NCBI RefSeq assembly: GCF_026130165.1
Contig: NZ_JAIHOM010000001.1
Coordinates: 1 to 64,000, forward strand
DNA: 64,000 nt
Direction of reading: 5' to 3'
Source of the DNA: Spirulina subsalsa FACHB-351
GTDB lineage: Bacteria > Cyanobacteriota > Cyanobacteriia > Cyanobacteriales > Spirulinaceae
Made by a program: the position numbers and the translations under genes. How positions within the stretch are numbered: position 1 is the first letter of the stretch; each line of letters begins with the position of its first letter. The notes below the pieces were generated by a model. The model was not told the origin of the DNA. It searched no databases and saw nothing but the letters and a program-made list of their open reading frames with translations. Positions 33,609-34,829 of the stretch are shown piece by piece.

Positions 33609-33878
33609 TTAAGCCATTTCTTTTGGGGTTTTTTCTTCCAGTCGTCCACTACCGCGCTCCTTCGTTGCATCTAACTCTTTATAGCCTTTATAACGGTTCA
33701 CTCGGCCACTACCGCGATCGCTAGAGCAGTAATCCGTACAAGTGTCAGACCCCGCGCTAGGCTGGGCTGAACTAATTTGCAGAGGCTCGGGCACCGTGCT
33801 GATTTCAGTTAATCCCGCCTTCACAGCCGGAACAATTGATAGTAAGCTCAGGAGAACTACTGTAATGTATGTGTGCAT
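33609..33878 (-). CDS. Small secreted protein with two RGSGR motifs (PatX/PatS-like)
   Basis: The 89-residue protein has an N-terminal signal peptide (YITVVLLSLLSIVPAVKA, cleavage near residue 21). It contains the pentapeptide RGSGR twice: residues 55-59 (within CSSDRGSGR) and 75-79 (as ERGSGR). RGSGR is the active peptide of PatS and HetN, which inhibit HetR in heterocyst patterning. PatX is a family of short secreted proteins with an RG(S/T)GR motif found with HetR in filamentous cyanobacteria. Size and layout fit PatX; two motifs and a further ten residues after the second are less usual. hetR is not in the window. It has its own terminator, and an inverted repeat lies just upstream. Confidence 0.75.
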   Translation of the reverse strand: MHTYITVVLLSLLSIVPAVKAGLTEISTVPEPLQISSAQPSAGSDTCTDYCSSDRGSGRVNRYKGYKELDATKERGSGRLEEKTPKEMA

Positions 33879-33890
33879 AGCAAATTTAAT

Positions 33891-33919
33891 CCGTGTCAGG
33901 TTTCTATTTCCTGATACGG
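33891..33919. promoter_or_regulatory. Inverted repeat upstream of the RGSGR gene
   Basis: CCGTGTCAGG (33891-33900) and CCTGATACGG (33910-33919) are inverted copies with one mismatch that can pair as G-U in RNA, separated by 9 bases. It ends 12 bases before the start codon at 33878. It could be an operator for a dimeric regulator or a 5' leader hairpin close to the ribosome-binding site. Confidence 0.5.
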
Positions 33920-33980
33920 AGTTTCTTGCTATTCATCAGGACAAATTTTTGCCCATCCCCTGAGCGGTTATGCTGAAAGA

Positions 33981-34829
33981 TTAAGCACCGCGCAGAGATT
34001 TTTCTAAAGTGGGGGGATCTATCCCCAATTCCGTCAGTAACACCAAGGCTGGACAAAATTGTTCAGGGTGGGGGAGTAACTTCTTCCAGAGACGAGTCAC
34101 CCCTAACAGTAAATGCTCACTGCCAATCAAAATATGACCCGATGCGATCGCCTCCTCCAGAGAAAACTGTAAAACCTGTTGAGCCATCGGGGAAAATGCC
34201 ATAATCCCCCCTTTTTGAGTCCCTAACCGACTCTTGACAAAAGACCGCGCTTGTGTTAGGTCTAAACCCACCATCTTCAAAGCCCGTGCCGCCCCCCCAC
34301 TGCCTTCCCCCAACAAGCCTAAAAGAATATGTTCCGCCTCTATTTTCTCCTGCCCTAAGCGCATCGCTTCCATCCGCGCCAACAGCAACACCTGCACCGC
34401 TTTTCCCCCCAAGCGCTCATAAATATGATGGGGAATAAAAGCCTCTAAATCCTCTTGTTGCGGATTTCTATGGAGAATTTGACCCAACAAAAACTCCTCA
34501 TTGTGTTGGGTAATTTTATGCCAATCCACAATATGCTGTTTTACACAACATTCTGTATAAAAAAAGGCAATTAAATCCTCTAAAACCTCCGTATTCAGGG
34601 AATAAAAAACATATTGTTTATCTTTTCTCACCCGAATAATACCCTGTTGTTTTAACCTATCCAAATGACGAGAAAGCCCAGAACTGGAAATCTTAATTCG
34701 TTCCAGTAATTCGGCTACTGTAATTTCGTGGGGGTACTTTTTCACCAGAAACCGGACAATAAATAAGCGGACTGGTGAGCCTAAAGCCCCCAACAAGCCA
34801 GCATAGCGTGTTGTACTTGATTTCATCAT
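33981..34829 (-). CDS. ArsR-type regulator fused to a Clp N-terminal repeat domain
   Basis: Residues about 8-85 form a winged helix of the ArsR class (GSPVRLFIVRFLV, SSSGLSRHLDRLKQQGIIRV, YVFYSLN). A vicinal CC pair (about 93-94, TECCVKQH) lies just behind it and could sense thiols or metal. Residues about 130-275 hold two Clp_N-type repeats (EKIEAEHILLGLLGEGSG and HILIGSEHLLLGV), the adaptor or substrate-binding module of ClpC/ClpB. There is no ATPase domain. The combination suggests a regulator whose stability or partner binding links to Clp proteases; this is inference. It lies upstream of, and in the same direction as, the RGSGR gene, 102 bp apart. Confidence 0.82.
   Translation of the reverse strand: MMKSSTTRYAGLLGALGSPVRLFIVRFLVKKYPHEITVAELLERIKISSSGLSRHLDRLKQQGIIRVRKDKQYVFYSLNTEVLEDLIAFFYTECCVKQHIVDWHKITQHNEEFLLGQILHRNPQQEDLEAFIPHHIYERLGGKAVQVLLLARMEAMRLGQEKIEAEHILLGLLGEGSGGAARALKMVGLDLTQARSFVKSRLGTQKGGIMAFSPMAQQVLQFSLEEAIASGHILIGSEHLLLGVTRLWKKLLPHPEQFCPALVLLTELGIDPPTLEKSLRGA

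Follow-up and report, generated by a model that had tools for sequence, protein, structure and literature searches.

The window, the whole 64,000-nucleotide stretch of Spirulina subsalsa FACHB-351 DNA that was analysed, contains on its minus strand an open reading frame (ORF) at 33609-33878 that encodes an 89-residue protein, MHTYITVVLLSLLSIVPAVKAGLTEISTVPEPLQISSAQPSAGSDTCTDYCSSDRGSGRVNRYKGYKELDATKERGSGRLEEKTPKEMA. Residues 1-21 (MHTYITVVLLSLLSIVPAVKA; 33816-33878) form a predicted Sec-type signal peptide by sequence inspection and comparison with homologues, and inspection also places a V-x-A-type signal peptidase site (V-K-A), with a predicted cut after A21. Two exact RGSGR pentapeptides lie in the remainder of the protein, motif 1 at residues 55-59 (context SDRGSGRV; codons 33716-33702) and motif 2 at residues 75-79 (context KERGSGRL; codons 33656-33642), and a C-x-x-x-C pair (C47 and C51; 33726-33740) is found shortly ahead of motif 1. 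The gene is followed by an intrinsic terminator at 33585-33564, and all of these features are on the minus strand. An earlier note on this DNA had described the signal peptide and both motifs at these codons and had read the second motif as ERGSGR, the PatS hexapeptide; translation bore out each of these points, with the hexapeptide at residues 74-79.

The two pentapeptides were the only occurrences of RG(S/T)GR in six-frame translations of the 64-kb window. When the mature part of the protein was shuffled, at least one motif was obtained in 0.07% of shuffles and two motifs in 0 of 400,000. The protein is 94% identical to its counterpart in a congener (G012), and between the two genes there are 10.5 changes that are synonymous and 5.5 that are not (dS 0.186, dN 0.028); the gene is under purifying selection, with a dN/dS of about 0.15 against this congener. 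Changes within the motifs were synonymous only (GGT/GGC at G56 and G76). Domain scans of the protein returned no Pfam or NCBIfam match, a tblastn search of plasmid sequences gave no match, and a whole-protein scan of genome contigs also gave no match; a model of the promoter (R1) was used in place of the latter.

On the same strand upstream of the gene, a DIF1-type element, TCCTGA, is located at 33936-33941, 63 nt before the start codon, and an inverted repeat, CCGTATCAGG-N9-CCTGACACGG, occupies 33891-33919 in the presumed -10/start region. The TCCTGA element differs by one base from TCCGGA, and TCCTGA, TCCGGA, TCCAGA or TCCCGA is found at the equivalent place in other family members. A conserved block, shared throughout the family and well beyond it, consists of TCC(T/G/A/C)GA, approximately 17 nt, CCGTATCAGG-nAATAGAAA-CCTGACACGG and the start codon, and most patX genes of the order have TCCNGA 58-64 nt ahead of the start. 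R1, a sequence-only model of this promoter block, matched 33876-33948 at 62.3 bits, its sole match in the S. subsalsa genome (runner-up at 15.3 bits). Across the order it matched 200 of 391 genomes at E ≤ 0.1, although the weaker of these matches may be chance. Among 60 further matches fetched across the order, 54 opened an ORF with RG(S/T)GR, mostly at 59-64 nt; the remaining six included one contig end and one HRGSRR relic. At L074, L079, L095, L149 and L151, mostly in the heterocyst-rich family f2, patX paralogues in tandem or more than one patX promoter lay within approximately 1 kb, and some promoter-linked copies elsewhere (L089, L096 and L171) have lost the motif.

The inverted repeat is conserved in families f1, f2, f15 and f23, is not conserved in f9, f10 and f21, and does not match the HetR recognition pattern gggN5ccc. 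As a single strand it folds well (z = -5), and a 5′ UTR RNA hairpin was considered. This reading was dropped given that the alignment contained no consensus RNA pairs and that the left arm lies at the expected -10 position, which together make a putative operator the more likely interpretation of the repeat.

Elhai and Khudyakov reportedly described patX genes in 2018 as having a DIF1 motif within 69 nt upstream. The ORF carries the RG(S/T)GR pentapeptide (in two copies), a hydrophobic Sec-type N-terminus that is kept in every homologue aligned, and TCCTGA at -63, consistent with the DIF1 element reported for patX; these are the three reported PatX features, so that PatX stands as the closest match, as had been proposed. 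HetR also co-occurs in the genome. By every testable feature the ORF is thus confirmed at the sequence level as patX. The PatX proteins of Nostoc/Anabaena PCC 7120 (56 aa, HRGTGR) and Leptolyngbya BL0902 are alike in being small and Sec-exported, in carrying RG(S/T)GR, and in having a DIF1-type promoter and an accompanying hetR. The S. subsalsa protein differs in having two motifs rather than the single one of Nostoc, in belonging to a lineage without detectable nifH, and in being encoded by a gene that does not adjoin hetR in its genome. Two other carriers of the hexapeptide were rejected as identities. PatS (17 aa) shares ERGSGR, its C-terminal hexapeptide, with residues 74-79, but PatS is a minimal peptide of the cytoplasm whose motif is at the C-terminus, whereas the 89-residue protein has a signal peptide and both of its motifs are internal. 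HetN likewise has an internal ERGSGR, yet it is a much larger, short-chain reductase-like protein with no homology to the present one, for which the domain scans gave no match.

A search for hetR, suggested as a check in the earlier note, returned one HetR_C match in the S. subsalsa genome, a full-length HetR of 299 aa that scored 535 bits to PDB 3qod. Its nearest named matches came from Spirulina-like strains, which would place the family in Spirulinaceae. The residues of HetR that bind PatS6 are R223, E253, E254, D256, D270 and D278 (PMC4649674), and all six are kept in the S. subsalsa protein. The patX and hetR genes are on separate contigs in this genome; in three other genera of the family (G006, G007 and G003), patX immediately precedes hetR in the same orientation. 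No nifH match over the cut-off was found in the S. subsalsa genome (best match 215.8 bits, cut-off 394); this best match is probably a chlorophyll-synthesis relative, and nitrogenase is most likely absent. Because nifH was below the cut-off, nitrogen-fixing heterocysts are unlikely and the organism is probably a non-heterocystous filamentous cyanobacterium, such that the heterocyst link drawn in the earlier note is not directly applicable. In one further genome (G015; L097/L298), a PatX-like precursor adjoining hetR has four RASGR and no RGSGR, with the change shared by all copies, and the six peptide contacts are nevertheless intact in its HetR.

Homologues of patX were found in all 12 of the other family genomes searched, which represent eight further genera. 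The number of canonical motifs is two in nine of the 12, three in L012, four in L011 and one, together with RGCGR, in L067; an extra degenerate RGCGR accompanies the two canonical motifs of L009. Relatives therefore keep the motifs (at least two canonical copies in 11 of 12) while the linkers diverge, and identity to the S. subsalsa protein outside the genus is 28-48%. The earlier note had named a genome without hetR, and relatives whose homologues lack the motifs, as grounds for refutation; both were checked and its interpretation held. Invariant alignment columns are essentially M1, L10, RGxGR in motif 1 and K-x-RGSGR in motif 2, where K73 and R75-R79 are invariant; motif 1 varies more than motif 2. 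Motif 1 is beside Cys and preceded by D, and motif 2 is preceded by KE, in most genera of the family. Most family members have a Cys pair near motif 1, and several have none. Within 8 residues of a motif, Cys accounted for 42 of 1627 residues, compared to 21 of 2498 elsewhere in mature parts, an approximately threefold difference. RGSGR flanked on both sides by a Cys no more than 8 residues away (e.g., CHRGSGRRC) was observed in L010, L011, L013, L054, L175, L179, L186, L188, L189 and L210, and this bracketing suggests disulphide-looped signal forms in several families.

Next to patX, the ORF at 33981-34829 encodes an unusual fusion in which an ArsR/SmtB-type winged helix is joined to a Clp_N domain. 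The earlier note had emphasized this Clp-linked neighbour, but synteny was not kept outside the genus: among relatives, this neighbour and the trpS neighbour of the window recur in the congener only. A neighbourhood restricted in this way carries little information on function, and the ArsR-Clp_N protein was dropped as a candidate PatX partner on the same grounds.

Motif number was compared across relatives, as the earlier note had advised, using 110 patX ORFs recovered by profile and promoter searches. Multi-motif proteins served to build the profile, and many of the genomes that gave no match were left uninspected, limits that apply to the following counts: 80 ORFs have one motif, 15 have two, six have three, four have four, two have five, two have six, and one has eleven. 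Multi-copy patX was found in f1 (12 of 13), f5, f9, f15, f21 and f32, and nearly all of the patX ORFs in the heterocyst-rich family f2 (45 of 46) have a single motif. Two metagenome-assembled genomes (L270 and L271; Leptolyngbyaceae, Synechococcales) have two and three motifs. Spacer units were 36 nt in L011, 33/69 nt in L057, RGSGRLELAQAPEILTPEVSY in L090 and approximately 40 aa in L107; tandem units are homogeneous, and units are unrelated between lineages. Degenerate copies include RGCGR (L009 and L067), RGERR (L075), HRGSDR (L054) and DRGEGR (L089), and some single-copy relatives show decayed motif copies. The unrelated spacers and decayed copies suggest that PatX motifs have repeatedly undergone tandem expansion and loss. 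A codon-level test for concerted evolution between the two copies of the motif was not significant (p = 0.13). One genome has two patX genes on the same contig (L107 and L210), of which one has a single motif and immediately precedes hetR and the other has six motifs and is located elsewhere. While PatX is already known, the two-motif design is real and conserved and belongs to a broader series of copy numbers; neither multi-motif PatX nor copy-number variation was found to be mentioned in the literature searched, the coverage of which did not include the founding 2018 paper.

Nostoc PatX requires export and is processed by a periplasmic peptidase, PatP, and the hexapeptide HRGTGR binds HetR at 88 nM and releases DNA (PMC12756182). 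By homology, S. subsalsa PatX should be exported and cut into HetR-inhibiting RGSGR-type peptides. We consider it likely that the two-copy patX is the inhibitor half of a HetR-PatX pair, encoding a secreted propeptide that is cut at both sites to give peptides that inhibit HetR. In this scheme, expression would be driven by the DIF1-type promoter, the Sec pathway would export the precursor, and signal peptidase would cut it behind A21. DRGSGR and ERGSGR, or RGSGR, would then be freed from both sites by a peptidase of the periplasm, which in Nostoc is PatP, and by further trimming; the peptides would enter neighbouring cells and bind the hood domain of HetR, and peptide-bound HetR would leave DNA, such that these cells would be kept from the HetR-driven fate. 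Given the genome without recognisable nifH, this fate would not be a nitrogen-fixing heterocyst, and necridia or filament breakage, proposed in the literature as the HetR-PatX process (PMC12756182), may take its place. Two motifs would double the ligand per translated precursor. HetR binding is unaffected by replacing the residue ahead of RGSGR (PMC4649674), which should make DRGSGR and ERGSGR equivalent HetR ligands, and the two motifs would most simply mean more ligand per precursor. It is plausible that a single precursor gives two signals, as had been proposed, and the family-wide multi-motif pattern backs this; the two signals may be functionally equivalent, and because the flanks of motifs 1 and 2 differ, their release may be unequal.

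Four other explanations were weighed against this reading. The lack of a Pfam or NCBIfam match to so short an ORF would fit a chance or mis-called frame with meaningless pentapeptides, a negligible possibility that was ruled out by the shuffles, by purifying selection, and by the conservation of promoter and motifs across the family. It is unlikely that a single motif is the signal and the other only a relic or a processing/recognition site. Degenerate copies do occur (L009, L067, L075, L054 and L089) and motif 1 is the less constant of the two, but 12 of 13 family genomes retain at least two canonical motifs, changes in both motifs between congeners are synonymous, and copies elsewhere multiply to 3-11 rather than decay. 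The recurrent placement of motif 1 by Cys and after D, and of motif 2 after KE, in most genera, together with the roughly threefold excess of Cys near motifs, could instead point to distinct signals, a Cys-associated DRGSGR and a plain ERGSGR with differing receptors, stability or range. This is distinctly unlikely, given that HetR binding is independent of the side chain ahead of RGSGR (PMC4649674) and that several family members have no Cys pair at motif 1.

It is also quite improbable that PatX acts mainly on a HetR-independent target in non-heterocystous filaments and that the two motifs serve this target. In Leptolyngbya BL0902, the effects of patX deletion on the transcriptome looked largely hetR-independent, and in gene groups on which PatX and HetR acted in opposite directions, the double mutant of patX and hetR was like the patX mutant and not the hetR mutant (PMC11298460). 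Against this, the RG(S/T)GR core matches the ligand of HetR exactly, patX and hetR adjoin in many genera (three within the family), and the HetR of S. subsalsa keeps the full set of peptide contacts.

The preferred reading thus remains a secreted PatX propeptide that is cut at both motifs and inhibits HetR, with export, cleavage at both sites, HetR inhibition and an effect of dose all inferred. A broader form of this reading, put forward tentatively and with somewhat less than even confidence, is that PatX is a multi-copy prohormone of non-heterocystous filaments, in which precursors bear 1-11 ligands, motifs expand in tandem and decay independently in several lineages, and copy number sets the dose of HetR inhibitor. 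The precursors of yeast alpha-factor and of animal neuropeptides are alike in that an exported precursor carries several copies of a short signal between spacers and copy number varies by tandem duplication. The likeness is one of working only: there is no homology, the processing enzymes differ, and the receptor HetR is intracellular.

The PatX-HetR pair is thought to be among the oldest bacterial patterning circuits, older than heterocysts. If one precursor does yield many ligands and copy number changes readily, cyanobacteria would use a multi-copy propeptide design otherwise familiar from yeast pheromones and animal neuropeptides. Multi-motif PatX proteins would be natural multi-site substrates for the question of how PatX is cleaved, and signal dose would be a heritable, countable trait that can be compared with filament behaviour.
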